Positions 1 to 64,000 of a DNA stretch of 64,000 nt are shown piece after piece. How positions within the stretch are numbered: position 1 is the first letter of the stretch; each line of letters begins with the position of its first letter. The stretch covers positions 2,294,001 to 2,358,000 of the forward strand of contig JBBELK010000060.1 of assembly GCA_037783545.1 (NCBI GenBank). Reading direction: 5' to 3'. Both the position numbers and the translations under genes were made by a program. The notes beneath the pieces are model-generated. The model ran no database searches. It saw nothing but the letters and a program-made list of their open reading frames with translations, and had not been told where the DNA came from. Origin of the DNA: Henricia sp. BOLD:AAB3569. Lineage: Eukaryota > Echinodermata > Asteroidea > Spinulosida > Echinasteridae.

Positions 1-25
1 TAGGCAAATCTGATCAGTTTTCGAG

Positions 26-30
26 AAAAA
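26..30 (-). terminator. Pol III oligo-T terminator (representative)
   Basis: T5 on the minus strand, 8 nt past the tRNA 3' end. In most copies a run of at least T4 sits at the same offset (left coordinate minus 13 to minus 9). Known exceptions are at 52227-52231 and 54743-54747. The 19355 and 21928 copies have T4 (ATTTT), 35342 and 39680 have T4, and 35130, 39468 and 43806 have T6. Confidence 0.85.
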
Positions 31-38
31 GCAGGTAC

Positions 39-53
39 CGTCCCTGGGTGGAT

Positions 54-106
<53 letters not shown>

Positions 107-112
107 AGAGAC
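39..112 (-). tRNA. tRNA-Asn(GTT), reference consensus body
   Basis: Cytosolic-type asparagine tRNA reading AAC/AAU codons. On the minus strand it folds as a full cloverleaf: acceptor stem GTCTCTG/CAGGGAC (one T4-G69 wobble), TG linker, D stem GCGC/GCGC with loop AATCGGTTA, anticodon stem TTCGG/CCGAA around loop CTGTTAA (anticodon GTT, T33 present), variable loop AGGTT, T stem GGTGG/CCACC around TTCAAAT, discriminator G. There is no intron and no encoded CCA. Box A (TGGCGCAATCGG) and box B (GGTTCAAATCC) are the internal pol III promoter; T5 lies 8 nt past the 3' end. Residue numbers in other entries follow the standard tRNA scheme on the sense strand. 'Consensus body' below means this exact 74-nt sequence. 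The 5' side is to the right; the 5' spacer is 290 bp. Confidence 0.97.
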
Positions 113-402
113 AACTGATGAGGCGTTTGTATGATGACCCGAAGGCGGCTTTGGAGACGTCTCACAAGTGATCTTCAACCAAAGCAAAAAATCGTTGATC
201 CCATCGGCATTCATTTGCCAGGATGCATTTGTTCGCTGGGCATCCTCTACTCACGATGACAGGATGTGTGCTGTTCCCCCTTTGTGTTTACATCCTCTTC
301 CTGTTTTAGAAGTTTGCTGACCAAAGTTCAAGATGCGTTTGCTTCCTGGTTATTCGGACGTTTTGAGGCAAATCTGATCGGTTTTCGAGAAAAAGCAGGT
401 AC
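39..402 (-). repeat. Prototype long unit (364 bp)
   Basis: One tRNA (39-112) plus the long spacer (113-402). On the + strand the spacer begins aactgatgaggcg, passes a tgtctcacaagtgatcttca segment, an A-rich run (T6 on the minus strand), a GGATGCATTTG block and a CATCCTCTTCCTG block, and ends gagaaaaagcaggtac before the next tRNA. The minus-strand T6 lies downstream of the next tRNA to the right and could act as a backup pol III terminator. I see no other element in it. Long spacers elsewhere differ by only a few bases. Confidence 0.95.
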
Positions 403-417
403 CGTCCCTGGGTGGAT

Positions 418-470
<53 letters not shown>

Positions 471-476
471 AGAGAC
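403..476 (-). tRNA. tRNA-Asn(GTT)
   Basis: Consensus body; 5' spacer 291 bp. Confidence 0.96.
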
Positions 477-767
477 AACTGATGAGGCGTTTGTATGATG
501 ACCCGAAGGCGCCTTTGGAGATGTCTCACAAGTGATCTTCAAACAAAGCAAAAAAATCGGGGATCCCATCGGCATTCATTTGCCAGGATGCATTTGTTCG
601 CTGGGCATCCTCTACTCACGATGACAGGATGTGTGCTGTTCCCGCTTTGTGTTTACATCCTCTTCCTGTTTTGGAAGTTTGCTGACCAATGTTCAAGATG
701 CGTTTGCTCCTTGGTTATTCGGACGTTTTTAGGCAAATCTGATCGGTTTTCGAGAAAAAGCAGTTAC

Positions 768-782
768 CGTCCCTGGGTGGAT

Positions 783-823
<41 letters not shown>

Positions 824-841
824 TGATTGCGCCACAGAGAC
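768..841 (-). tRNA. tRNA-Asn(GTT), G18A variant
   Basis: G18 of the D-loop GG is A. G18 normally pairs with position 55 of the T-loop and lies in box A, so folding and transcription may suffer. The 3' flank has gcagttac instead of gcaggtac. 5' spacer 138 bp. Same variant at 4531 and 16414. Confidence 0.85.
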
Positions 842-979
842 AACTGAGGAGGCGTTTGTATGATGACCCGAAGGCGCCTGTTTTAGAAGTTTGCTGACCA
901 AAGTTCAAGATGCGTTTGCTTCCTGGTTATTCGGACGTTTTGAGGCAAATCTGATCGGTTTTAGAGAAAAAGCAGGTAC
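768..979 (-). repeat. Prototype short unit (212 bp)
   Basis: A tRNA plus a 138-bp spacer. The spacer equals the long one with about 152 bp missing, joined at gaaggcgcct|gttttagaag; both parental sites carry CCT, so the junction has 3-bp microhomology. It lacks the internal A-run, so the only oligo-T terminator left is the one next to the tRNA 3' end. Confidence 0.93.
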
Positions 980-994
980 CGTCCCTGGGTGGAT

Positions 995-1047
<53 letters not shown>

Positions 1048-1053
1048 AGAGAC
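980..1053 (-). tRNA. tRNA-Asn(GTT)
   Basis: Consensus body; 5' spacer 138 bp with the tgaggagg flank. Confidence 0.96.
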
Positions 1054-1191
1054 AACTGAGGAGGCGTTTGTATGATGACCCGAGAGCGCCTATTTTAGAA
1101 GTTTGCTGACCAAAGTTCAAGATGCGTTTGCTTCCTGGTTATTCGGACGTTTTGAGGCAAATCTGATCAGTTTTCGAGAAAAAGCAGGTAC

Positions 1192-1265
1192 CGTCCCTGG
1201 GTGGATTTGAACCACCAACCTTTCGGTTAACAGCCTAACGCGCTAACCGATTGCGCCACAGAGAC
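1192..1265 (-). tRNA. tRNA-Asn(GTT), C29A variant
   Basis: C29A breaks the 29-41 pair of the anticodon stem (A-G mismatch). 5' spacer 290 bp. Counterpart at 4955. Confidence 0.82.
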
Positions 1266-1555
1266 AACTGATGAGGCGTTTGTATGATGACCCGAAGGCG
1301 GCTTTGGAGATGTCTCACAAGTGATCTTCAACCAAAGCAAAAAATCGTTGATCCCATCGGCATTCATTTGCCAGGATGCATTTGTTCGCTGGGCATCCTC
1401 TACTCACGATGACAGGATGTGTGCTGTTCCCCCTTTGTGTTTACATCCTCTTCCTGTTTTGGAAGTTTGCTGACCAATGTTCAAGATGCGTTTGCTCCCT
1501 GGTTATTCGGACGTTTTTAGGCAAATCTGATCGGTTTTCGAGAAAAAGCAGGTAC

Positions 1556-1570
1556 CGTCCCTGGGTGGAT

Positions 1571-1623
<53 letters not shown>

Positions 1624-1629
1624 AGAGAC
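1556..1629 (-). tRNA. tRNA-Asn(GTT)
   Basis: Consensus body; 5' spacer 290 bp. First of three nearly identical long units. Confidence 0.96.
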
Positions 1630-1919
1630 AACTGATGAGGCGTTTGTATGATGACCCGAAGGCGGCTTTGGAGATGTCTCACAAGTGATCTTCAACCAAA
1701 GCAAAAAATCGTTGATCCCATCGGCATTCATTTGCCAGGATGCATTTGTTCGCTGGGCATCCTCTACTCACGATGACAGGATGTGTGCTGTTCCCCCTTT
1801 GTGTTTACATCCTCTTCCTGTTTTGGAAGTTTGCTGACCAATGTTCAAGATGCGTTTGCTCCCTGGTTATTCGGACGTTTTTAGGCAAATCTGATCGGTT
1901 TTCGAGAAAAAGCAGGTAC

Positions 1920-1934
1920 CGTCCCTGGGTGGAT

Positions 1935-1987
<53 letters not shown>

Positions 1988-1993
1988 AGAGAC
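1920..1993 (-). tRNA. tRNA-Asn(GTT)
   Basis: Consensus body; 5' spacer 290 bp. Confidence 0.96.
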
Positions 1994-50364: not shown

Positions 50365-50417
<53 letters not shown>

Positions 50418-50664: not shown

Positions 50665-50679
50665 CGTCCCTGGGTGGAT

Positions 50680-50732
<53 letters not shown>

Positions 50733-50738
50733 AGAGAC
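50665..50738 (-). tRNA. tRNA-Asn(GTT)
   Basis: Consensus body; 3' flank gaaaaagaagg. 5' spacer 138 bp. Confidence 0.96.
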
Positions 50739-50876
50739 AACTGATGAGGCGTTTGTATGATGCCCCGAGGGCGCCTGTTTTAGAAGTTTGCTGACCAAAG
50801 TTCAAGATGCGTTTGCTTCCTGGTTATTCGGACGTTTTGAGGCAAATCTGATCGGTTTTCGAGAAAAAGCAGGTAC

Positions 50877-50891
50877 CGTCCCTGGGTGGAT

Positions 50892-50944
<53 letters not shown>

Positions 50945-50950
50945 AGAGAC
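50877..50950 (-). tRNA. tRNA-Asn(GTT)
   Basis: Consensus body; 5' spacer 138 bp. Confidence 0.96.
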
Positions 50951-51088
50951 AACTGATGAGGCGTTTGTATGATGCCCCGAGGGCGCCTGTTTTAGAAGTT
51001 TGCTGACCAAAGTTCAAGATGCGTTTGCTTCCTGGTTATTCGGACGTTTTGAGGCAAATCTGATCGGTTTTCGAGAAAAAGCAGGTAC

Positions 51089-51103
51089 CGTCCCTGGGTG
51101 GAT

Positions 51104-51156
<53 letters not shown>

Positions 51157-51162
51157 AGAGAC
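51089..51162 (-). tRNA. tRNA-Asn(GTT)
   Basis: Consensus body; 5' spacer 290 bp. Confidence 0.96.
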
Positions 51163-51452
51163 AACTGATGAGGCGTTTGTATGATGACCCGAAGGCGCCT
51201 TTGGAGATGTCTCACAAGTGATCTTCAAACAAAGCAAAAAAATCGGGGATCCCATCGGCATTCATTTGCCAGGATGCATTTGTTCGATGGAATCCTCTAC
51301 TCACGATGACAGGATGTGTGCTGTTCCCCCTTTGTGTTTACATCCTCTTCCTGTTTTGGAAGTTTGCTGACCAATGTTCAAGATGCGTTTGCTCCCTGGT
51401 TATTCGGACGTTTTTAGGCAAATCTGATCAGTTTTAGAGAAAAAGCAGGTAC

Positions 51453-51467
51453 CGTCCCTGGGTGGAT

Positions 51468-51503
<36 letters not shown>

Positions 51504-51526
51504 GTAACCGATTGCGCCACAGAGAC
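51453..51526 (-). tRNA. tRNA-Asn(GTT), G22C variant
   Basis: G22C makes a C-C mismatch closing the D loop. 5' spacer 138 bp. Confidence 0.83.
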
Positions 51527-51664
51527 AACTGATGAGGCGTTTGTATGATGCCCCGAGGGCGCCTGTTTTAGAAGTTTGCTAACCAAAGTTCAAGATGCGT
51601 TTGCTTCCTGGTTATTCGGACGTTTTGAGGCAAATCTGATCGGTTTTCGAGAAAAAGCAGGTAC

Positions 51665-51678
51665 CGTCCTGGGTGGAT

Positions 51679-51726
<48 letters not shown>

Positions 51727-51737
51727 CCCACAGAGAC
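51665..51737 (-). pseudogene. tRNA-Asn with acceptor deletion + C11G
   Basis: One G of the acceptor 3' strand GGG is missing (73 nt), and C11G breaks a D-stem pair and box A. 5' spacer 290 bp. Confidence 0.82.
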
Positions 51738-52027
51738 AACTGATGAGGCGTTTGTATGATGACCCGAAGCCGCCTTTGGAGATGTCTCACAAGTGATCTT
51801 CAAACAAAGCAAAAAAATCGGGGATCCCATCGGCATTCATTTGCCAGGATGCATTTGTTCGCTGGGCATCCTCTACTCACGATGACAGGATGTGTGCTGT
51901 TCCTCTTTGTGTTTACATCCTCTTCCTGTTTTGGAAGTTTGCTGACCAATGTTCAAGATGCGTTTGCTCCCTGGTTATTCGGACGTTTTTAGGCAAATCT
52001 GATCGGTTTTCGAGAAAAAGCAGGTAC

Positions 52028-52042
52028 CGTCCCTGGGTGGAT

Positions 52043-52095
<53 letters not shown>

Positions 52096-52101
52096 AGAGA
52101 C
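52028..52101 (-). tRNA. tRNA-Asn(GTT)
   Basis: Consensus body; it lies downstream of the terminator-less GTG copy and may be cotranscribed with it. 5' spacer 138 bp. Confidence 0.96.
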
Positions 52102-52226
52102 AACTGAGGAGGTGTTTGTATGATGACCCGAGAGCGCCTATTTTAGAAGTTTGCTGACCAAAGTTCAAGATGCGTTTGCTTCCTGGTTATTCAGACGTTT
52201 TGAGGCAAATCTGATCAGTTTTAGAG

Positions 52227-52231
52227 AATAA
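52227..52231 (-). other. Disrupted terminator of the GTG-anticodon copy
   Basis: The usual T5 reads TTATT. No other T4 run is present on the minus strand through the 138-bp spacer, so transcription could read through into the tRNA at 52028. Confidence 0.8.
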
Positions 52232-52239
52232 GCAGGTAC

Positions 52240-52313
52240 CGTCCCTGGGTGGATTTGAACCACCAACCTTTCGGTTCACAGCCGAACGCGCTAACCGATT
52301 GCGCCACAGAGAC
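52240..52313 (-). tRNA. tRNA-Asn body with anticodon GTG
   Basis: The only body change is T36G, so the loop reads CTGTGAA and the anticodon is GTG, which would read His codons CAC/CAU. All stems, box A and box B are intact. It lacks the extra 5' G that histidyl-tRNA synthetase normally requires, and GTT is a main identity element for asparaginyl-tRNA synthetase, so charging is uncertain. The terminator is TTATT. Most likely a decaying copy; missense decoding is the alternative. 5' spacer 290 bp. Confidence 0.85.
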
Positions 52314-52603
52314 AATTGATGAGGCGTTTGTATGATGACCCGAAGGCGGCTTTGGAGATGTCTCACAAGTGATCCTCAACCAAAGCAAAAAATCGTTGAT
52401 CCCATCGGCATTCATTTGCCAGGATGCATTTGTTCGCTGGGCATCCTCTACTCACGATGACAGGATGTGTGCTGTTCCCCCTTTGTGTTTACATCCTCTT
52501 CCTGTTTTGGAAGTTTGCTGACCAATGTTCAAGATGCGTTTGCTCCCTGGTTATTCGGACGTTTTTAGGCAAATCTGATCGGTTTTCGAGAAAAAGCAGG
52601 TAC

Positions 52604-52618
52604 CGTCCCTGGGTGGAT

Positions 52619-52671
<53 letters not shown>

Positions 52672-52677
52672 ATAGAC
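52604..52677 (-). tRNA. tRNA-Asn(GTT), C5A variant
   Basis: C5A makes an A-G mismatch in the acceptor stem. 5' spacer 138 bp. Same at 55120, 55696, 59630 and 60206. Confidence 0.83.
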
Positions 52678-52815
52678 AACTGATGAGGCGTTTGTATGAT
52701 GCCCCGAGGGGGCCTGTTTTAGAAGTTTGCTGACCAAAGTTCAAGATGCGTTTGCTTCCTGGTTATTCGGACGTTTTGAGGCAAATCTGATCGGTTTTTG
52801 AGAAAAAGCAGGTAC

Positions 52816-52830
52816 CGTCCCTGGGTGGAT

Positions 52831-52883
<53 letters not shown>

Positions 52884-52889
52884 AGAGAC
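52816..52889 (-). tRNA. tRNA-Asn(GTT)
   Basis: Consensus body; 5' flank aattaatg. 5' spacer 290 bp. Confidence 0.96.
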
Positions 52890-53179
52890 AATTAATGAGG
52901 CGTTTGTATGATGACCCGAAGGCGGCTTTGGAGATGTCTCACAAGTGATCCTCAACCAAAGCAAAAAATCGTTGATCCCATCGGCATTCATTTGCCAGGA
53001 TGCATTTGTTCGCTGGGCATCCTCTACTCACGATGACAGGATGTGTGCTGTTCCCCCTTTGTGTTTACATCCTCTTCCTGTTTTGGAAGTTTGCTGACCA
53101 ATGTTCAAGATGCGTTTGCTCCCTGGTTATTCGGACGTTTTTAGGCAAATCTGATCGGTTTTCGAGAAAAAGCAGGTAC

Positions 53180-53194
53180 CGTCCCTGCGTGGAT

Positions 53195-53247
<53 letters not shown>

Positions 53248-53253
53248 TGAGAC
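53180..53253 (-). tRNA. tRNA-Asn(GTT), C65G + T6A variant
   Basis: C65G (G-G) and T6A (A-A) break one T-stem and one acceptor pair. 5' spacer 138 bp. Confidence 0.77.
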
Positions 53254-53391
53254 AACTGATGAGGCGTTTGTATGATGCCCCGAGGGCGCCTATTTTAGAA
53301 GTTTGCTGACCAAAGTTCAAGATGCGTTTGCTTCCTGGTTATTCGGACGTTTTGAGGCAAATCTGATCAGTTTTAGAGAAAAAGCAGGTAC

Positions 53392-53406
53392 CGTCCCTGG
53401 GTGGAT

Positions 53407-53459
<53 letters not shown>

Positions 53460-53465
53460 AGAGAC
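53392..53465 (-). tRNA. tRNA-Asn(GTT)
   Basis: Consensus body; 5' spacer 290 bp with the aattgatg flank. Confidence 0.96.
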
Positions 53466-53755
53466 AATTGATGAGGCGTTTGTATGATGACCCGAAGGCG
53501 GCTTTAGAGATGTCTCACAAGTGATCCTCAACCAAAGGAAAAAATCGTTGATCCCATCGGCATTCATTTGCCAGGATGCATTTGTTCGCTGGGCATCCTC
53601 TACTCACGATGACAGGATGTGTGCTGTTCCCCCTTTGTGTTTACATCCTCTTCCTGTTTTGGAAGTTTGCTGACCAATGTTCAAGATGCGTTTGCTCCCT
53701 GGTTATTCGGACGTTTTTAGGCAAATCTGATCGGTTTTCGAGAAAAAGCAGGTAC

Positions 53756-53770
53756 CGTCCCTGGGTGGAT

Positions 53771-53823
<53 letters not shown>

Positions 53824-53829
53824 AGAGAC
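53756..53829 (-). tRNA. tRNA-Asn(GTT)
   Basis: Consensus body; 5' spacer 138 bp. Confidence 0.96.
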
Positions 53830-53967
53830 AACTGATGAGGCGTTTGTATGATTCCCCGAGGGCGCCTGTTTTAGAAGTTTGCTGACCAAAGTTCAAGATG
53901 CGTTTGCTTCCTGGTTATTCGGACGTTTTGAGGCAAATCTGATCGGTTTTCGAGAAAAAGCAGGTAC

Positions 53968-53982
53968 CGTCCCTGGGTGGAT

Positions 53983-54035
<53 letters not shown>

Positions 54036-54041
54036 AGAGAC
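53968..54041 (-). tRNA. tRNA-Asn(GTT)
   Basis: Consensus body; 5' spacer 138 bp. Confidence 0.96.
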
Positions 54042-54179
54042 AACTGATGAGGCGTTTGTATGATGCCCCGAGGGCGCCTGTTTTAGAAGTTTGCTGACCA
54101 AAGTTCAAGATGCGTTTGCTTCCTGGTTATTCGGACGTTTTGAGGCAAATCTGATCGGTTTTCGAGAAAAAGCAGGTAC

Positions 54180-54253
54180 CGTCCCTGGGTGGATTTGAAC
54201 CACCAACCTTTCGGTTAACAGCGGAACGCGCTAACCGATTGCGCCACAGAGAC
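54180..54253 (-). tRNA. tRNA-Asn(GTT), G30C variant
   Basis: G30C makes a C-C mismatch in the anticodon stem. 5' spacer 290 bp. Confidence 0.83.
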
Positions 54254-54543
54254 AACTGATGAGGCGTTTGTATGATGACCCGAAGGCGCCTTTGGAGATG
54301 TCTCACAAGTGATCTTCAAACAAAGCAAAAAAATCGGGGATCCCATCGGCATTCATTTGCCAGGATGCATTTGTTCGCTGGGCATCCTCTACTCACGATG
54401 ACAGGATGTGTGCTGTTCCTCTTTGTGTTTACATCCTCTTCCTGTTTTGGAAGTTTGCTGACCAATGTTCAAGATGCGTTTGCTCCCTGGTTATTCGGAC
54501 GTTTTTAGGCAAATCTGATCGGTTTTCGAGAAAAAGCAGGTAC

Positions 54544-54558
54544 CGTCCCTGGGTGGAT

Positions 54559-54611
<53 letters not shown>

Positions 54612-54617
54612 AGAGAC
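54544..54617 (-). tRNA. tRNA-Asn(GTT)
   Basis: Consensus body; downstream of the second GTG copy. 5' spacer 138 bp. Confidence 0.96.
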
Positions 54618-54742
54618 AACTGAGGAGGTGTTTGTATGATGACCCGAGAGCGCCTATTTTAGAAGTTTGCTGACCAAAGTTCAAGATGCGTTTGCTTCCT
54701 GGTTATTCAGACGTTTTGAGGCAAATCTGATCAGTTTTAGAG

Positions 54743-54747
54743 AATAA
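54743..54747 (-). other. Disrupted terminator of the second GTG-anticodon copy
   Basis: Same TTATT change as at 52227, retained in the 2516-bp duplicate; the next tRNA downstream is at 54544. Confidence 0.8.
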
Positions 54748-54755
54748 GCAGGTAC

Positions 54756-54829
54756 CGTCCCTGGGTGGATTTGAACCACCAACCTTTCGGTTCACAGCCG
54801 AACGCGCTAACCGATTGCGCCACAGAGAC
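54756..54829 (-). tRNA. tRNA-Asn body with anticodon GTG
   Basis: Same T36G and the same TTATT terminator as 52240, retained through the 2516-bp duplication. 5' spacer 290 bp. Confidence 0.85.
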
Positions 54830-55119
54830 AATTGATGAGGCGTTTGTATGATGACCCGAAGGCGGCTTTGGAGATGTCTCACAAGTGATCCTCAACCAAA
54901 GCAAAAAATCGTTGATCCCATCGGCATTCATTTGCCAGGATGCATTTGTTCGCTGGGCATCCTCTACTCACGATGACAGGATGTGTGCTGTTCCCCCTTT
55001 GTGTTTACATCCTCTTCCTGTTTTGGAAGTTTGCTGACCAATGTTCAAGATGCGTTTGCTCCCTGGTTATTCGGACGTTTTTAGGCAAATCTGATCGGTT
55101 TTCGAGAAAAAGCAGGTAC

Positions 55120-55134
55120 CGTCCCTGGGTGGAT

Positions 55135-55187
<53 letters not shown>

Positions 55188-55193
55188 ATAGAC
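55120..55193 (-). tRNA. tRNA-Asn(GTT), C5A variant
   Basis: As 52604; 5' spacer 138 bp. Confidence 0.83.
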
Positions 55194-55331
55194 AACTGAT
55201 GAGGCGTTTGTATGATGCCCCGAGGGGGCCTGTTTTAGAAGTTTGCTGACCAAAGTTCAAGATGCGTTTGCTTCCTGGTTATTCGGACGTTTTGAGGCAA
55301 ATCTGATCGGTTTTTGAGAAAAAGCAGGTAC

Positions 55332-55346
55332 CGTCCCTGGGTGGAT

Positions 55347-55399
<53 letters not shown>

Positions 55400-55405
55400 A
55401 GAGAC
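55332..55405 (-). tRNA. tRNA-Asn(GTT)
   Basis: Consensus body; 3' flank tttttgagaaaaag. 5' spacer 290 bp. Confidence 0.96.
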
Positions 55406-55695
55406 AATTGATGAGGCGTTTGTATGATGACCCGAAGGCGGCTTTGGAGATGTCTCACAAGTGATCCTCAACCAAAGCAAAAAATCGTTGATCCCATCGG
55501 CATTCATTTGCCAGGATGCATTTGTTCGCTGGGCATCCTCTACTCACGATGACAGGATGTGTGCTGTTCCCCCTTTGTGTTTACATCCTCTTCCTGTTTT
55601 GGAAGTTTGCTGACCAATGTTCAAGATGCGTTTGCTCCCTGGTTATTCGGACGTTTTTAGGCAAATCTGATCGGTTTTCGAGAAAAAGCAGGTAC

Positions 55696-55710
55696 CGTCC
55701 CTGGGTGGAT

Positions 55711-55763
<53 letters not shown>

Positions 55764-55769
55764 ATAGAC
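55696..55769 (-). tRNA. tRNA-Asn(GTT), C5A variant
   Basis: As 52604; 5' spacer 138 bp. Confidence 0.83.
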
Positions 55770-55907
55770 AACTGATGAGGCGTTTGTATGATGCCCCGAG
55801 GGGGCCTGTTTTAGAAGTTTGCTGACCAAAGTTCAAGATGCGTTTGCTTCCTGGTTATTCGGACGTTTTGAGGCAAATCTGATCGGTTTTTGAGAAAAAG
55901 CAGGTAC

Positions 55908-55922
55908 CGTCCCTGGGTGGAT

Positions 55923-55975
<53 letters not shown>

Positions 55976-55981
55976 AGAGAC
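55908..55981 (-). tRNA. tRNA-Asn(GTT)
   Basis: Consensus body; 5' spacer 290 bp. Confidence 0.96.
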
Positions 55982-56271
55982 AATTGATGAGGCGTTTGTA
56001 TGATGACCCGAAGGCGGCTTTGGAGATGTCTCACAAGTGATCCTCAACCAAAGCAAAAAATCGTTGATCCCATCGGCATTCATTTGCCAGGATGCATTTG
56101 TTCGCTGGGCATCCTCTACTCACGATGACAGGATGTGTGCTGTTCCCCCTTTGTGTTTACATCCTCTTCCTGTTTTGGAAGTTTGCTGACCAATGTTCAA
56201 GATGCGTTTGCTCCCTGGTTATTCGGACGTTTTTAGGCAAATCTGATCGGTTTTCGAGAAAAAGCAGGTAC

Positions 56272-56345
56272 CGTCCCTGGGTGGATTTGAACCACCAACC
56301 TTTCGGTTAACAGCAGAACGCGCTAACCGATTGCGCCACTGAGAC
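56272..56345 (-). tRNA. tRNA-Asn(GTT), G30T + T6A variant
   Basis: G30T and T6A break one anticodon-stem and one acceptor pair. 5' spacer 138 bp. Counterpart at 60782. Confidence 0.77.
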
Positions 56346-56483
56346 AACTGATGAGGCGTTTGTATGATGCCCCGAGGGCGCCTGTTTTAGAAGTTTGCTG
56401 ACCAAAGTTCAAGATGCGTTTGCTTCCTGGTTATTCGGACGTTTTGAGGCAAATCTGATCGGTTTTCGAGAAAAAGCAGGTAC

Positions 56484-56498
56484 CGTCCCTGGGTGGAT

Positions 56499-56551
<53 letters not shown>

Positions 56552-56557
56552 AGAGAC
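56484..56557 (-). tRNA. tRNA-Asn(GTT)
   Basis: Consensus body; 5' spacer 290 bp. Confidence 0.96.
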
Positions 56558-56847
56558 AACTGATGAGGCGTTTGTATGATGACCCGAAAGCGCCTTTGGA
56601 GATGTCTCACAAGTGATCTTCAAACAAAGCAAAAAAATCGGGGATCCCATCGGCATTCATTTGCCAGGATGCATTTGTTCGCTGGGCATCCTCTACTCAC
56701 GATGACAGGATGTGTGCTGTTCCCCTTTGTGTTTACATCCTCTTCCTGTTTTGGAAGTTTGCTGACCAATGTTCAAGATGCGTTTGCTCCCTGGTTATTC
56801 GGACGTTTTTAGGCAAATCTGATCGGTTTTCGAGAAAAAGCAGGTAC

Positions 56848-56862
56848 CGTCCCTGGGTGGAT

Positions 56863-56915
<53 letters not shown>

Positions 56916-56921
56916 AGAGAC
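56848..56921 (-). tRNA. tRNA-Asn(GTT)
   Basis: Consensus body; starts the first nested 1679-bp repeat. 5' spacer 138 bp. Confidence 0.96.
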
Positions 56922-57059
56922 AACTGAGGAGGCGTTTGTATGATGACCCGAGAGCGCCTATTTTAGAAGTTTGCTGACCAATGTTCAAGATGCGTTTGCT
57001 CCCTGGTTATTCGGACGTTTTTTGGCAAATCTGATCGGTTTTCGAGAAAAAGCAGGTAC

Positions 57060-57074
57060 CGTCCCTGGGTGGAT

Positions 57075-57127
<53 letters not shown>

Positions 57128-57133
57128 AGAGAC
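57060..57133 (-). tRNA. tRNA-Asn(GTT)
   Basis: Consensus body; 3' flank acgttttttggc. 5' spacer 45 bp. Confidence 0.96.
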
Positions 57134-57178
57134 AACTGAGGAGGCGTTTGTATGATGACCCGAAGAAAAAGCAGGTAC

Positions 57179-57236
57179 CGTCCCTGGGTGGATTTGAACC
57201 ACCAACCTTTCGGTTAACCGATTGCGCCACAGAGAC
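57179..57236 (-). pseudogene. 58-nt deleted tRNA-Asn (mini-tRNA)
   Basis: As 46958, without G46A; 5' spacer 138 bp. Confidence 0.9.
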
Positions 57237-57374
57237 AACTGAGGAGGCGTTTGTATGATGACCCGAAGGCGCCTGTTTTAGACGTTTGCTGACCAAAGTT
57301 CAAGATGCGTTTGCTTCCTGGTTATTCGGACGTTTTAAGGCAAATCTGATCGCTTTTCGAGAAAAAGCAGGTAC

Positions 57375-57389
57375 CGTCCCTGGGTGGAT

Positions 57390-57442
<53 letters not shown>

Positions 57443-57448
57443 AGAGAC
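57375..57448 (-). tRNA. tRNA-Asn(GTT)
   Basis: Consensus body; 5' spacer 138 bp. Confidence 0.96.
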
Positions 57449-57586
57449 AACTGAGGAGGCGTTTGTATGATGACCCGAGAGCGCCTATTTTAGAAGTTTG
57501 CTGACCAAAGTTCAAGATGCGTTTGCTTCCTGGTTATTCGGACGTTTTGAGGCAAATCTGATCAGTTTTAGAGAAAAAGCAGGTAC

Positions 57587-57601
57587 CGTCCCTGGGTGGA
57601 T

Positions 57602-57654
<53 letters not shown>

Positions 57655-57660
57655 AGAGAC
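57587..57660 (-). tRNA. tRNA-Asn(GTT)
   Basis: Consensus body; 5' spacer 290 bp. Confidence 0.96.
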
Positions 57661-57950
57661 AATTGATGAGGCGTTTGTATGATGACCCGAAGGCGGCTTT
57701 AGAGATGTCTCACAAGTGATCCTCAACCAAAGGAAAAAATCGTTGATCCCATCGGCATTCATTTGCCAGGATGCATTTGTTCGCTGGGCATCCTCTACTC
57801 ACGATGACAGGATGTGTGCTGTTCCCCCTTTGTGTTTACATCCTCTTCCTGTTTTGGAAGTTTGCTGACCAATGTTCAAGATGCGTTTGCTCCCTGGTTA
57901 TTCGGACGTTTTTAGGCAAATCTGATCGGTTTTCGAGAAAAAGCAGGTAC

Positions 57951-57965
57951 CGTCCCTGGGTGGAT

Positions 57966-58018
<53 letters not shown>

Positions 58019-58024
58019 AGAGAC
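57951..58024 (-). tRNA. tRNA-Asn(GTT)
   Basis: Consensus body; 5' spacer 138 bp. Confidence 0.96.
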
Positions 58025-58162
58025 AACTGATGAGGCGTTTGTATGATGCCCCGAGGGCGCCTGTTTTAGAAGTTTGCTGACCAAAGTTCAAGATGCGTTT
58101 GCTTCCTGGTTATTCGGACGTTTTGAGGCAAATCTGATCGGTTTTCGAGAAAAAGCAGGTAC

Positions 58163-58177
58163 CGTCCCTGGGTGGAT

Positions 58178-58230
<53 letters not shown>

Positions 58231-58236
58231 AGAGAC
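58163..58236 (-). tRNA. tRNA-Asn(GTT)
   Basis: Consensus body; 5' spacer 290 bp. Confidence 0.96.
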
Positions 58237-58526
58237 AACTGATGAGGCGTTTGTATGATGCCCCGAAAGCGCCTTTGGAGATGTCTCACAAGTGATCTTC
58301 AAACAAAGCAAAAAAATCGGGGATCCCATCGGCATTCATTTGCCAGGATGCATTTGTTCGCTGGGCATCCTCTACTCACGATGACAGGATGTGTGCTGTT
58401 CCCCTTTGTGTTTACATCCTCTTCCTGTTTTGGAAGTTTGCTGACCAATGTTCAAGATGCGTTTGCTCCATGGTTATTCGGACGTTTTTAGGCAAATCTG
58501 ATCGGTTTTCGAGAAAAAGCAGGTAC

Positions 58527-58541
58527 CGTCCCTGGGTGGAT

Positions 58542-58594
<53 letters not shown>

Positions 58595-58600
58595 AGAGAC
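58527..58600 (-). tRNA. tRNA-Asn(GTT)
   Basis: Consensus body; 5' spacer 138 bp. Confidence 0.96.
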
Positions 58601-58738
58601 AACTGAGGAGGCGTTTGTATGATGACCCGAGAGCGCCTATTTTAGAAGTTTGCTGACCAATGTTCAAGATGCGTTTGCTCCCTGGTTATTCGGACGTTTT
58701 TTGGCAAATCTGATCGGTTTTCGAGAAAAAGCAGGTAC

Positions 58739-58753
58739 CGTCCCTGGGTGGAT

Positions 58754-58806
<53 letters not shown>

Positions 58807-58812
58807 AGAGAC
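58739..58812 (-). tRNA. tRNA-Asn(GTT)
   Basis: Consensus body; 5' spacer 45 bp. Confidence 0.96.
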
Positions 58813-58857
58813 AACTGAGGAGGCGTTTGTATGATGACCCGAAGAAAAAGCAGGTAC

Positions 58858-58915
58858 CGTCCCTGGGTGGATTTGAACCACCAACCTTTCGGTTAACCGA
58901 TTGCGCCACAGAGAC
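58858..58915 (-). pseudogene. 58-nt deleted tRNA-Asn (mini-tRNA)
   Basis: As 57179; 5' spacer 138 bp. Confidence 0.9.
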
Positions 58916-59053
58916 AACTGAGGAGGCGTTTGTATGATGACCCGAATGCGCCTGTTTTAGACGTTTGCTGACCAAAGTTCAAGATGCGTTTGCTTCCTGG
59001 TTATTCGGACGTTTTAAGGCAAATCTGATCGCTTTTCGAGAAAAAGCAGGTAC

Positions 59054-59068
59054 CGTCCCTGGGTGGAT

Positions 59069-59121
<53 letters not shown>

Positions 59122-59127
59122 AGAGAC
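59054..59127 (-). tRNA. tRNA-Asn(GTT)
   Basis: Consensus body; 5' spacer 138 bp. Confidence 0.96.
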
Positions 59128-59265
59128 AACTGAGGAGGCGTTTGTATGATGACCCGAGAGCGCCTATTTTAGAAGTTTGCTGACCAAAGTTCAAGATGCG
59201 TTTGCTTCCTGGTTATTCGGACGTTTTGAGGCAAATCTGATCAGTTTTAGAGAAAAAGCAGGTAC

Positions 59266-59280
59266 CGTCCCTGGGTGGAT

Positions 59281-59333
<53 letters not shown>

Positions 59334-59339
59334 AGAGAC
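59266..59339 (-). tRNA. tRNA-Asn(GTT)
   Basis: Consensus body; 5' spacer 290 bp. Confidence 0.96.
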
Positions 59340-59629
59340 AATTGATGAGGCGTTTGTATGATGACCCGAAGGCGGCTTTAGAGATGTCTCACAAGTGATC
59401 CTCAACCAAAGGAAAAAATCGTTGATCCCATCGGCATTCATTTGCCAGGATGCATTTGTTCGCTGGGCATCCTCTACTCACGATGACAGGATGTGTGCTG
59501 TTCCCCCTTTGTGTTTACATCCTCTTCCTGTTTTGGAAGTTTGCTGACCAATGTTCAAGATGCGTTTGCTCCCTGGTTATTCGGACGTTTTTAGGCAAAT
59601 CTGATCGGTTTTCGAGAAAAAGCAGGTAC

Positions 59630-59644
59630 CGTCCCTGGGTGGAT

Positions 59645-59697
<53 letters not shown>

Positions 59698-59703
59698 ATA
59701 GAC
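59630..59703 (-). tRNA. tRNA-Asn(GTT), C5A variant
   Basis: As 52604; 5' spacer 138 bp. Confidence 0.83.
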
Positions 59704-59841
59704 AACTGATGAGGCGTTTGTATGATGCCCCGAGGGGGCCTGTTTTAGAAGTTTGCTGACCAAAGTTCAAGATGCGTTTGCTTCCTGGTTATTCGGACGT
59801 TTTGAGGCAAATCTGATCAGTTTTAGAGAAAAAGCAGGTAC

Positions 59842-59856
59842 CGTCCCTGGGTGGAT

Positions 59857-59909
<53 letters not shown>

Positions 59910-59915
59910 AGAGAC
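59842..59915 (-). tRNA. tRNA-Asn(GTT)
   Basis: Consensus body; 3' flank cagttttagag differs from its counterpart at 55332, a mosaic mark. 5' spacer 290 bp. Confidence 0.96.
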
Positions 59916-60205
59916 AATTGATGAGGCGTTTGTATGATGACCCGAAGGCGGCTTTGGAGATGTCTCACAAGTGATCCTCAACCAAAGCAAAAAATCGTTG
60001 ATCCCATCGGCATTCATTTGCCAGGATGCATTTGTTCGCTGGGCATCCTCTACTCACGATGACAGGATGTGTGCTGTTCCCCCTTTGTGTTTACATCCTC
60101 TTCCTGTTTTGGAAGTTTGCTGACCAATGTTCAAGATGCGTTTGCTCCCTGGTTATTCGGACGTTTTTAGGCAAATCTGATCGGTTTTCGAGAAAAAGCA
60201 GGTAC

Positions 60206-60220
60206 CGTCCCTGGGTGGAT

Positions 60221-60273
<53 letters not shown>

Positions 60274-60279
60274 ATAGAC
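60206..60279 (-). tRNA. tRNA-Asn(GTT), C5A variant
   Basis: As 52604; 5' spacer 138 bp. Confidence 0.83.
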
Positions 60280-60417
60280 AACTGATGAGGCGTTTGTATG
60301 ATGCCCCGAGGGGGCCTGTTTTAGAAGTTTGCTGACCAAAGTTCAAGATGCGTTTGCTTCCTGGTTATTCGGACGTTTTGAGGCAAATCTGATCGGTTTT
60401 TGAGAAAAAGCAGGTAC

Positions 60418-60432
60418 CGTCCCTGGGTGGAT

Positions 60433-60485
<53 letters not shown>

Positions 60486-60491
60486 AGAGAC
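60418..60491 (-). tRNA. tRNA-Asn(GTT)
   Basis: Consensus body; 5' spacer 290 bp. Confidence 0.96.
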
Positions 60492-60781
60492 AATTGATGA
60501 GGCGTTTGTATGATGACCCGAAGGCGGCTTTGGAGATGTCTCACAAGTGATCCTCAACCAAAGCAAAAAATCGTTGATCCCATCGGCATTCATTTGCCAG
60601 GATGCATTTGTTCGCTGGGCATCCTCTACTCACGATGACAGGATGTGTGCTGTTCCCCCTTTGTGTTTACATCCTCTTCCTGTTTTGGAAGTTTGCTGAC
60701 CAATGTTCAAGATGCGTTTGCTCCCTGGTTATTCGGACGTTTTTAGGCAAATCTGATCGGTTTTCGAGAAAAAGCAGGTAC

Positions 60782-60855
60782 CGTCCCTGGGTGGATTTGA
60801 ACCACCAACCTTTCGGTTAACAGCAGAACGCGCTAACCGATTGCGCCACTGAGAC
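60782..60855 (-). tRNA. tRNA-Asn(GTT), G30T + T6A variant
   Basis: As 56272; 5' spacer 138 bp. Confidence 0.77.
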
Positions 60856-60993
60856 AACTGATGAGGCGTTTGTATGATGCCCCGAGGGCGCCTGTTTTAG
60901 AAGTTTGCTGACCAAAGTTCAAGATGCGTTTGCTTCCTGGTTATTCGGACGTTTTGAGGCAAATCTGATCGGTTTTCGAGAAAAAGCAGGTAC

Positions 60994-61008
60994 CGTCCCT
61001 GGGTGGAT

Positions 61009-61061
<53 letters not shown>

Positions 61062-61067
61062 AGAGAC
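60994..61067 (-). tRNA. tRNA-Asn(GTT)
   Basis: Consensus body; 5' spacer 290 bp. Confidence 0.96.
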
Positions 61068-61357
61068 AACTGATGAGGCGTTTGTATGATGACCCGAAAG
61101 CGCCTTTGGAGATGTCTCACAAGTGATCTTCAAACAAAGCAAAAAAATCGGGGATCCCATCGGCATTCATTTGCCAGGATGCATTTGTTCGCTGGGCATC
61201 CTCTACTCACGATGACAGGATGTGTGCTGTTCCCCTTTGTGTTTACATCCTCTTCCTGTTTTGGAAGTTTGCTGACCAATGTTCAAGATGCGTTTGCTCC
61301 CTGGTTATTCGGACGTTTTTAGGCAAATCTGATCGGTTTTCGAGAAAAAGCAGGTAC

Positions 61358-61372
61358 CGTCCCTGGGTGGAT

Positions 61373-61425
<53 letters not shown>

Positions 61426-61431
61426 AGAGAC
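61358..61431 (-). tRNA. tRNA-Asn(GTT)
   Basis: Consensus body; 5' spacer 138 bp. Confidence 0.96.
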
Positions 61432-61569
61432 AACTGAGGAGGCGTTTGTATGATGACCCGAGAGCGCCTATTTTAGAAGTTTGCTGACCAATGTTCAAGA
61501 TGCGTTTGCTCCCTGGTTATTCGGACGTTTTTTGGCAAATCTGATCGGTTTTCGAGAAAAAGCAGGTAC

Positions 61570-61584
61570 CGTCCCTGGGTGGAT

Positions 61585-61637
<53 letters not shown>

Positions 61638-61643
61638 AGAGAC
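61570..61643 (-). tRNA. tRNA-Asn(GTT)
   Basis: Consensus body; 5' spacer 45 bp. Confidence 0.96.
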
Positions 61644-61688
61644 AACTGAGGAGGCGTTTGTATGATGACCCGAAGAAAAAGCAGGTAC

Positions 61689-61746
61689 CGTCCCTGGGTG
61701 GATTTGAACCACCAACCTTTCGGTTAACCGATTGCGCCACAGAGAC
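61689..61746 (-). pseudogene. 58-nt deleted tRNA-Asn (mini-tRNA)
   Basis: As 57179; 5' spacer 138 bp. Confidence 0.9.
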
Positions 61747-61884
61747 AACTGAGGAGGCGTTTGTATGATGACCCGAAGGCGCCTGTTTTAGACGTTTGCT
61801 GACCAAAGTTCAAGATGCGTTTGCTTCCTGGTTATTCGGACGTTTTAAGGCAAATCTGATCGCTTTTCGAGAAAAAGCAGGTAC

Positions 61885-61899
61885 CGTCCCTGGGTGGAT

Positions 61900-61952
<53 letters not shown>

Positions 61953-61958
61953 AGAGAC
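61885..61958 (-). tRNA. tRNA-Asn(GTT)
   Basis: Consensus body; 5' spacer 138 bp. Confidence 0.96.
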
Positions 61959-62096
61959 AACTGAGGAGGCGTTTGTATGATGACCCGAGAGCGCCTATTT
62001 TAGAAGTTTGCTGACCAAAGTTCAAGATGCGTTTGCTTCCTGGTTATTCGGACGTTTTGAGGCAAATCTGATCAGTTTTAGAGAAAAAGCAGGTAC

Positions 62097-62111
62097 CGTC
62101 CCTGGGTGGAT

Positions 62112-62164
<53 letters not shown>

Positions 62165-62170
62165 AGAGAC
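62097..62170 (-). tRNA. tRNA-Asn(GTT)
   Basis: Consensus body; 5' spacer 290 bp. Confidence 0.96.
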
Positions 62171-62460
62171 AATTGATGAGGCGTTTGTATGATGACCCGA
62201 AGGCGGCTTTAGAGATGTCTCACAAGTGATCCTCAACCAAAGGAAAAAATCGTTGATCCCATCGGCATTCATTTGCCAGGATGCATTTGTTCGCTGGGCA
62301 TCCTCTACTCACGATGACAGGATGTGTGCTGTTCCCCCTTTGTGTTTACATCCTCTTCCTGTTTTGGAAGTTTGCTGACCAATGTTCAAGATGCGTTTGC
62401 TCCCTGGTTATTCGGACGTTTTTAGGCAAATCTGATCGGTTTTCGAGAAAAAGCAGGTAC

Positions 62461-62475
62461 CGTCCCTGGGTGGAT

Positions 62476-62528
<53 letters not shown>

Positions 62529-62534
62529 AGAGAC
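62461..62534 (-). tRNA. tRNA-Asn(GTT)
   Basis: Consensus body; 5' spacer 138 bp. Confidence 0.96.
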
Positions 62535-62672
62535 AACTGATGAGGCGTTTGTATGATGCCCCGAGGGCGCCTGTTTTAGAAGTTTGCTGACCAAAGTTCA
62601 AGATGCGTTTGCTTCCTGGTTATTCGGACGTTTTGAGGCAAATCTGATCGGTTTTCGAGAAAAAGCAGGTAC

Positions 62673-62687
62673 CGTCCCTGGGTGGAT

Positions 62688-62740
<53 letters not shown>

Positions 62741-62746
62741 AGAGAC
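62673..62746 (-). tRNA. tRNA-Asn(GTT)
   Basis: Consensus body; 5' spacer 290 bp. Confidence 0.96.
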
Positions 62747-63036
62747 AACTGATGAGGCGTTTGTATGATGCCCCGAAAGCGCCTTTGGAGATGTCTCACA
62801 AGTGATCTTCAAACAAAGCAAAAAAATCGGGGATCCCATCGGCATTCATTTGCCAGGATGCATTTGTTCGCTGGGCATCCTCTACTCACGATGACAGGAT
62901 GTGTGCTGTTCCCCTTTGTGTTTACATCCTCTTCCTGTTTTGGAAGTTTGCTGACCAATGTTCAAGATGCGTTTGCTCCATGGTTATTCGGACGTTTTTA
63001 GGCAAATCTGATCGGTTTTCGAGAAAAAGCAGGTAC

Positions 63037-63051
63037 CGTCCCTGGGTGGAT

Positions 63052-63104
<53 letters not shown>

Positions 63105-63110
63105 AGAGAC
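63037..63110 (-). tRNA. tRNA-Asn(GTT)
   Basis: Consensus body; 5' spacer 138 bp. Confidence 0.96.
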
Positions 63111-63248
63111 AACTGAGGAGGCGTTTGTATGATGACCCGAGAGCGCCTATTTTAGAAGTTTGCTGACCAATGTTCAAGATGCGTTTGCTCCCTGGTTATT
63201 CGGACGTTTTTTGGCAAATCTGATCGGTTTTCGAGAAAAAGCAGGTAC

Positions 63249-63263
63249 CGTCCCTGGGTGGAT

Positions 63264-63316
<53 letters not shown>

Positions 63317-63322
63317 AGAGAC
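63249..63322 (-). tRNA. tRNA-Asn(GTT)
   Basis: Consensus body; 5' spacer 45 bp. Confidence 0.96.
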
Positions 63323-63367
63323 AACTGAGGAGGCGTTTGTATGATGACCCGAAGAAAAAGCAGGTAC

Positions 63368-63425
63368 CGTCCCTGGGTGGATTTGAACCACCAACCTTTC
63401 GGTTAACCGATTGCGCCACAGAGAC
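63368..63425 (-). pseudogene. 58-nt deleted tRNA-Asn (mini-tRNA)
   Basis: As 57179; 5' spacer 138 bp. Confidence 0.9.
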
Positions 63426-63563
63426 AACTGAGGAGGCGTTTGTATGATGACCCGAATGCGCCTGTTTTAGACGTTTGCTGACCAAAGTTCAAGATGCGTT
63501 TGCTTCCTGGTTATTCGGACGTTTTAAGGCAAATCTGATCGCTTTTCGAGAAAAAGCAGGTAC

Positions 63564-63578
63564 CGTCCCTGGGTGGAT

Positions 63579-63631
<53 letters not shown>

Positions 63632-63637
63632 AGAGAC
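63564..63637 (-). tRNA. tRNA-Asn(GTT)
   Basis: Consensus body; 5' spacer 138 bp. Confidence 0.96.
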
Positions 63638-63775
63638 AACTGAGGAGGCGTTTGTATGATGACCCGAGAGCGCCTATTTTAGAAGTTTGCTGACCAAAGT
63701 TCAAGATGCGTTTGCTTCCTGGTTATTCGGACGTTTTGAGGCAAATCTGATCAGTTTTAGAGAAAAAGCAGGTAC

Positions 63776-63790
63776 CGTCCCTGGGTGGAT

Positions 63791-63843
<53 letters not shown>

Positions 63844-63849
63844 AGAGAC
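63776..63849 (-). tRNA. tRNA-Asn(GTT), last copy in window
   Basis: Consensus body. The window ends 151 bases into its long 5' spacer (63850-64000), so the array continues. Confidence 0.96.
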
Positions 63850-64000
63850 AATTGATGAGGCGTTTGTATGATGACCCGAAGGCGGCTTTAGAGATGTCTC
63901 ACAAGTGATCCTCAACCAAAGGAAAAAATCGTTGATCCCATCGGCATTCATTTGCCAGGATGCATTTGTTCGCTGGGCATCCTCTACTCACGATGACAGG

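Follow-up and report, generated by a model that had tools for sequence, protein, structure and literature searches.

A tandem array of tRNA-Asn genes in the genome of a sea star, and dispersed genes for another isodecoder

The DNA analysed here, a window of 64,000 nucleotides (C60:2,294,001-2,358,000), is filled with copies of one tRNA gene, and this raises the question of what such an array represents. A preliminary description left two options, a true dosage array and a satellite that includes a tRNA by accident. In agreement with that description, 221 merged tRNA-Asn bodies were found, all of them on the minus strand (221/221). ARAGORN called 214 tRNA genes in the window, and scanning its first 8 kb against Rfam yielded 27 matches to RF00005 (32.9-72 bits) and no other family at gathering score. 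The interval between bodies is 212 bp in 77 out of 220 cases and 364/365 bp in 109. The main features are as follows.

1..64000, minus strand: part of the tRNA-Asn array; whole array at C60:2,233,727-2,424,578, 651 copies
113..476, minus strand: example of a long unit, 364 bp, gene of 74 plus spacer of 290 (from sequence)
403..476, minus strand: example of a tRNA-Asn(GTT) body, 74 bases, consensus, CCA not encoded (from sequence; RF00005, 72 bits)
390..394, minus strand: T5 run 8 bases past the example gene, resembling a pol III terminator (from sequence)
842..1053, minus strand: example of a short unit, 212 bp, with 152 bp less spacer (from sequence)
151..302, minus strand: the 152-bp spacer part absent from short units (from unit-consensus alignment; ends read from sequence)
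25054..47803, minus strand: region with 24 ATT-anticodon copies amid GTT copies (from tRNA calls and body analysis)
33162..43719, minus strand: higher-order repeat with a lag of 4,338 bp, containing the longest exact repeat, 6,220 bp, which starts at 33162 and 37500
46958..63441, minus strand: region with seven copies carrying a 12-base deletion that removes the anticodon (from body analysis)
52240..52313, minus strand: Asn-type body with GTG anticodon and intact stem pairs; a second such body is at 54756

Full length is retained by 212 of the 221 bodies, with the anticodons GTT in 186, ATT in 24, and GTG in two. The remaining nine have deletions, and the same loss of 12 bases is seen in seven of them (at 46958, 49366, 50469, 57179, 58858, 61689, and 63368). 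The assumption of the preliminary description that every copy specifies GTT is therefore not correct. The exact consensus body is present 123 times (123/221), and 142 of the 221 copies are intact GTT genes, defined by a GTT anticodon, no broken stem pair, and a downstream run of at least four T.

A pattern of 30 bases for tRNA-Asn was run genome-wide with up to three mismatches. It gave 628 matches, its reversed control none, and an origin of the matches by chance or from low-complexity sequence can thus be dismissed. A single array contains 609 of the 628. Such a distribution also bears on the proposal that the copies belong to a tRNA-derived SINE or a retroposed family. Dispersed tRNA-like elements do exist in the genome, but many dispersed copies of this gene were not found, the tRNA of the body is intact and not reduced to a degenerate head, and the few dispersed genes are either surrounded by unrelated sequence or represent a stray unit of the array. 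A SINE origin was accordingly rejected and is regarded as exceedingly improbable.

The whole array comprises 651 copies over approximately 191 kb, of which 647 are located on one strand; the others form an inverted block of four copies near its right end. Both edges of the window lie within the array, as had been stated, which runs on within the same contig for about 60 kb beyond the left edge and about 66 kb beyond the right one. Units consisting of a tRNA-Asn body and a spacer are arranged head to tail and are patchily homogeneous, with higher-order repeats detected as a recurrence of exact units at lags of 14 and 23 units. Exact repeats of at least 1 kb cover 45.6% of the array. A small cluster is located apart from the array at a distance of 250 kb; the bodies of its units show 97.3% identity to the array consensus (six out of six), and spacer identity ranges from 85.7 to 96.5%. 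Inflated or mis-joined copies in the assembly could be suspected from a run of 1,121 N within the array (C60:2,237,170-2,238,290, which may be a gap), from the inverted block, and from the length of the exact repeats. An artefact is nevertheless very unlikely, considering that 337 distinct sequences are found among 628 units, that the array is contained in one contig of 4.43 Mb with non-array sequence at both sides, that a retrotransposon breaks its right edge, and that other tRNAs are arrayed elsewhere in the genome. We are highly confident that nuclear tRNA-Asn genes are truly arrayed in tandem here.

Are these genes capable of function? In the entire array, 625 copies are full length, with the anticodon GTT in 585 of them and ATT, GTG, or TTT in the remainder. 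No broken stem pair was detected in the cloverleaf of 471, A-box and B-box consensus sequences are present in 554 and 575, respectively, and a run of at least four T follows 620. Together with the absence of an encoded CCA, these are the properties of nuclear eukaryotic tRNA-Asn genes. By the definition used above, 454 of the 651 copies are intact GTT genes and 197 are not. Four broken stem pairs are found in 22 of the 27 ATT copies. Since 197 copies are not intact and the broken ATT type was amplified along with the others, individual copies can be under weak selection at most. Variants reaching 5% of the copies are missing in the body (0 of 92 distinct variants) and account for 12 of 169 in the shared spacer (Fisher p=0.005), a value that is uncorrected and rests in part on linked differences between short and long units. 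The variant spectra of body and spacer did not differ significantly (Mann-Whitney p=0.26), nor was the comparison significant with a threshold of 2% (p=0.135); the number of distinct variants per column is equal, 1.243 in both.

These data can be read in two ways. A tRNA gene may have been caught in a unit that was expanded by recombination alone, leaving nearly all copies as silent heterochromatin while the dispersed genes suffice. The amplification of broken ATT and anticodon-less copies, the extent of exact repeats as a sign of recent turnover, and the equal density of variants in body and spacer are consistent with such a passenger, and we consider it a serious possibility, though not the favoured one. 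The lack of common variants in the body, the promoter boxes and terminator retained by most copies, the arraying of several isoacceptors with unrelated spacers in one genome, and the small number of dispersed Asn genes argue against it. Real tRNA genes that were amplified by unequal exchange and form a second isodecoder class provide the best explanation overall, to which we assign an even chance. Under this explanation, unequal crossing-over or conversion would account for both the growth and the homogenisation of the array, deletion of the 152-bp spacer part (bordered by CCT/CT microhomology in the copy at 151..302) could have turned long units into short ones, and weak selection might have kept mutated bodies from spreading.

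Six further tRNA patterns, for Lys, iMet, Phe, Trp, Asp, and His, were also run genome-wide. Matches numbered 1,735 for Lys, 815 for iMet, 500 for Phe, and 23 for Trp, and the reversed patterns of Lys, iMet, and Phe gave none. The Asp and His patterns had no match genome-wide; they were based on vertebrates and may simply misfit the sea star. Several further tRNA types are arrayed in the same genome, Lys with Tyr, iMet, and Phe with Ile, and the iMet stretches are homogeneous like those of Asn. Because other isoacceptors are arrayed as well, the notion of a lone satellite with a tRNA included by accident loses ground. What stands of the preliminary interpretation is a single-isoacceptor array, nearly uniformly oriented, that exceeds the window and is bounded by other sequence. 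A generic D-arm plus B-box pattern produced 191 matches, which among those listed were mainly SINE-like by eye, and is unfit as a tRNA count. One Ile gene folded alone gave a z of -0.58. In the mitochondrial DNA of the assembly, AAA occurs where COI has Asn, TGA specifies Trp, and the order is ND1(-)-L-G-Y-D-M-V-C-W-A-L-N-Q-P-COI-R-ND4L-COII-K, which we take to be the asteroid order; mitochondrial code and gene arrangement are thus compatible with a sea star.

No spacer in common with the Asn unit was found in the two Lys/Tyr loci compared. This speaks against an array that is maintained as a chromatin boundary or a replication-fork pause site for the sake of its pol III complexes and not of the tRNA product. 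The co-orientation of the copies would fit such a role, a human tRNA tandem repeat has been proposed as a boundary element (PMC4041453), and interference of tDNA clusters with replication forks is discussed in a passage of (PMC2888827), but co-orientation follows from tandem duplication alone. We consider this role quite improbable.

Comparison of arrayed and dispersed genes revealed a difference in the tRNA itself. Dispersed Asn genes are very few. At body base index 16, all 625 full-length array copies have C, whereas the four dispersed genes with unrelated flanks have T; in three of these four, a compensated acceptor pair C:G replaces T:A, and the two bases of this pair occur together in none of the 625. 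The four dispersed genes therefore encode another isodecoder than the array. The two dispersed Lys genes examined share one sequence, which departs from that of the array Lys body at five sites (counted by eye). Trp matches have A in 20 of 20 cases on contig C490 and G at the same site in three of three on C515. The two-class pattern is not universal, since for iMet, two of two dispersed bodies are the same as the consensus of the array. Two parallel sets of tRNA genes, oocyte-type isodecoder satellites for several isoacceptors with hundreds of copies or more each and a few dispersed somatic-type genes, are conceivable but doubtful.

Oocyte-type tRNA and 5S arrays are known from Xenopus, in which the arrayed class is used in oocytes and a separate class is somatic. 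The split in the sea star resembles this arrangement, with classes that are defined here by sequence only. Large tRNA arrays are already known as a kind, and the Asn array is a new member. Clusters were thought in the preliminary description to be often mixed or shorter; according to the portions of the literature cited here, homogeneous clusters and clusters of at least 50 have been described (PMC2888827), and 5,227 tRNA genes are predicted on zebrafish chromosome 4 (PMC11574265). On this chromosome and in other large zebrafish clusters, thousands of tRNA genes are clustered and isolated genes for other isodecoders are found elsewhere (excerpts of PMC11417395, PMC11574265), but neighbouring pairs are mostly heterogeneous (passage in PMC2888827), in contrast to the homogeneous Asn and iMet stretches. 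The same passage attributes very large tDNA numbers and clusters of at least 50 to Nematostella, stickleback, and other eukaryotes. Nematostella has more than 17,000 tDNAs, 89% of them clustered, with mostly heterogeneous pairs, unlike the 651 consecutive genes for one isoacceptor. Most tRNA genes of Entamoeba are in isoacceptor-specific tandem arrays with near-identical units containing one or several tRNAs; the section of (PMC2652664) concerned describes STR-rich spacers and no clear evidence of pseudogene copies and calls the function obscure. The sea star array differs by frequent broken copies and by its animal host, and probably also by its spacers, which by eye do not resemble STRs; among 95 TRF rows for the window, one short-period array was reported (16 bp, 2.6 copies). 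The Arabidopsis Ser/Tyr (SYY) cluster is likewise tandem, though with two isoacceptors and in a plant, and its expression demonstrates that particular cells can activate an array that is otherwise largely silent (PMC12308677). The human 1q23.3 tRNA VNTR is a tandem repeat of variable copy number, but with 7.3-kb units in 9-43 copies that are CTCF-bound (PMC4041453). Among the matches listed in one open-access library, none of the titles concerned nuclear tRNA genes arrayed in tandem in a sea star.

If the array consists of amplified genes, its copies may be pol III-competent and could constitute a second, chromatin-gated tRNA supply at peak demand, in the oocyte or early embryo, with other cells served by the dispersed genes. 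It is fairly probable that a good share of them is transcribed in some tissue. By analogy to the zebrafish clusters, for which expression is known, a maternal role is suggested tentatively. According to parts of the two zebrafish papers, maternally deposited tRNAs stem from repetitive clusters and later isodecoders from isolated genes (PMC11417395), yet the clusters show near-complete CpG methylation in early embryos, are inaccessible, and have tRNA levels that do not track copy number (PMC11574265). The latter results disagree with a maternal role, and the closed state is in line with silent passengers.

Large tRNA arrays thus have no settled function, and in the portions cited these two papers diverge. 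Because the base distinguishing arrayed from dispersed Asn genes is fixed, sequencing of tRNAs from eggs and adults could tell which class is used. If two sets do exist, the tRNA sequence produced would itself encode the cell type, as in oocyte and somatic 5S rRNA. Should arrayed isodecoders be kept for the egg in animals as distant as fish and sea stars, this would amount to a general rule for stocking eggs with tRNA.

A Blast search with the 74-base tRNA-Asn consensus as query, with split rows merged, detected 221 tRNA-Asn bodies in the window, all of them on the minus strand, and the 214 tRNA genes found there by ARAGORN are likewise exclusively minus. The copy number and the common orientation given in the preliminary description are thereby confirmed. 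Its assignment of the copies to tRNA-Asn(GTT) holds for 186 of the 212 full-length bodies, but not for 24 with the anticodon ATT and two with GTG. Nine copies have deletions, and seven of these have lost the same 12 bases including the anticodon. The consensus is matched exactly by 123 of the 221 copies. Copies were considered intact if they had the GTT anticodon, kept 21 stem pairs, and were followed by a run of at least four T residues within 40 bases; 142 copies in the window passed all tests.

The window occupies positions 2,294,001-2,358,000 of contig C60. Of this contig, 22 stretches were analyzed, comprising 224 kb contiguous around the window and six 10-kb samples further out. The features referred to are listed below.

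Features on contig C60 and in the window
C60:1,981,106-1,985,258, strand opposite to the array: second, small tRNA-Asn cluster, 7 exact pattern matches
C60:2,233,727-2,424,578, 647 bodies minus and 4 plus: tRNA-Asn array, 651 bodies
C60:2,237,170-2,238,290: run of N, 1,121 bases
C60:2,417,560-2,422,300: retrotransposon of ~4.7 kb within the right array edge; open frames hit PF00078 (reverse transcriptase) and PF00589 (phage-type integrase, tyrosine-recombinase-type)
C60:3,099,084 and beyond: Phe array, 346 bp spacing, from the pattern search
Window 52240-52313 and 54756-54829, minus: Asn-type bodies with the His-type anticodon GTG, 11 in the whole array

The four plus-strand bodies form a single block close to the right end. 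In the stretch that follows the fetched array on either side, and likewise in the six outer C60 samples, the array unit had no match. From its reverse transcriptase and phage-type integrase frames, we take the retrotransposon to be DIRS-like.

The main spacing classes of the whole array are 212 bp (277), 364 bp (164), 365 bp (93), and 363 bp (20), the short unit being the long one without 152 bp of spacer. Since the spacer of the small C60 cluster is long-type, the long unit is probably the older one. Among 628 array units, 337 distinct sequences were found. Identical units return most often with a lag of 14 or 23 units. Exact repeats of up to 6,220 bp occur, and those of 1 kb or longer cover 45.6% of the array. 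Such unit diversity, lags and long repeats are the expected product of unequal exchange, which probably shaped the array.

Among the 625 full-length array copies, the A box agrees with the consensus in 554 and the B-box stretch in 575, and the T run follows 620; 454 of all 651 are intact. Genuine tRNA-Asn gene bodies, equipped with promoter boxes and terminators, are thereby shown for the array. The ATT copies, 27 in the whole array, have four broken stem pairs in 22 cases; this type, with several changes in common, was amplified alongside good copies (window 25054-47803). The anticodon TTT occurs twice in the array. All stem pairs are kept in 10 of the 11 GTG copies, which, if made and charged, could misread His codons; that they are uncharged appears more likely.

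Comparison of body and shared spacer gave 1.243 distinct variants per column for each, so that mutation input looks equal. Variants present in at least 5% of the copies, however, number 0 of 92 in the body versus 12 of 169 in the spacer (Fisher p=0.005), with mean non-major frequencies of 0.0099 and 0.0337. The evidence for a body held more constant than the spacer is moderate, because two further tests did not reach significance (p=0.26, and p=0.135 with the threshold at 2%) and the spacer variants compared include linked differences between short and long units. In the small C60 cluster, body identity is 97.3% in six out of six units and spacer identity 85.7-96.5%. Weak purifying selection may act on the bodies.

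In the whole assembly (740.7 Mb, 2,104 contigs), the Asn pattern matched 628 times, 609 times in the array and 19 times outside. Among the outside matches listed (at least 12), seven belong to the small C60 cluster and one each to contigs C127, C130, C340, C370, and C829. C130 holds a stray unit of the array type; the remaining four single loci have unrelated flanks. These dispersed genes differ from the array by a fixed substitution: at body index 16, C is present in 625 of 625 array copies and T in all four. In three of them (C127, C340, C370) a C:G pair also replaces T:A in the acceptor stem. A pattern for the dispersed type yielded three exact matches, with C829 and one array copy each at one mismatch. 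The C340 and C370 stretches, 95% identical over 790 bases, may be alleles, with two haplotypes retained in the assembly, or a duplication.

Seven isoacceptor patterns (Asn, Lys, iMet, Phe, Trp, Asp, His) were searched genome-wide. Lys, with TTT and CTT anticodons admitted, gave 1,735 matches, iMet 815, Phe 500, and Trp 23; Asp and His gave none in the genome, nor did the reversed control of any pattern. The structure of the Asn array and the presence of arrays of other isoacceptors in the same genome are established. In the pieces read, the units on C109 and C837 measure ~590 bp and hold a Lys(TTT) and a Tyr(GTA) gene in divergent orientation, being 92.6% alike between the contigs, and the iMet unit is 179 bp. 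The one Phe unit read (C60:3,120,180-3,120,640) also contains an Ile-type tRNA in opposite orientation with the anticodon GAT, which is unusual for eukaryotic nuclear tRNA-Ile, AAT being usual. Judging from these units, Asn and iMet arrays carry one tRNA per unit and the other arrays two. The dispersed Lys genes on C376 and C453 are identical and, by eye, five sites apart from the array Lys body; dispersed iMet genes (C250, C450) equal the array iMet consensus. For Trp, 20 of 20 C490 matches have A where three of three C515 matches have G. Three tandem tRNA-Lys with anticodons CTT, TTT, and CTT, spaced ~204-209 bp (C120:1,672,400-1,673,100), may represent another Lys array. Elements resembling tRNAs, with a GGTAGAGC...GGTTCGAATCC core and dispersed over many contigs, are probably SINE families. 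A loose first genome-wide count gave 135,043 tRNA candidates.

COI had four matches in the assembly, each with 11 in-frame TGA codons. AAA occupies COI positions of Asn, and we take this usage to be the echinoderm code. The mitochondrial order, ND1(-)-L-G-Y-D-M-V-C-W-A-L-N-Q-P-COI-R-ND4L-COII-K, we take to be that of asteroids. On C955, three COI copies are spaced by 16,221 bp, the mitochondrial genome being assembled as a tandem concatemer.

Since tRNA clusters both large and homogeneous are already known (PMC2888827) and Entamoeba generally keeps its tRNA genes in isoacceptor-specific arrays (PMC2652664), the array is a further example of a known cluster type. For a sea cucumber, 1,032 tRNA genes and substantial differences among echinoderms are reported; neither "tandem" nor "cluster" occurs in the main text of that article (PMC8580430). 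An Arabidopsis tRNA cluster is active in root-tip cells and silent in most tissues (PMC12308677). In zebrafish, CpG methylation of clustered tRNA genes (chromosomes 4, 8, and 3) is nearly complete, and tRNA level is uncorrelated with copy number (PMC11574265). In another zebrafish study, the isodecoders found in eggs originate from repetitive regions, those appearing later from isolated genes (PMC11417395). By analogy with these egg isodecoders, the array may have a maternal role, and it could be used as a second tRNA supply.
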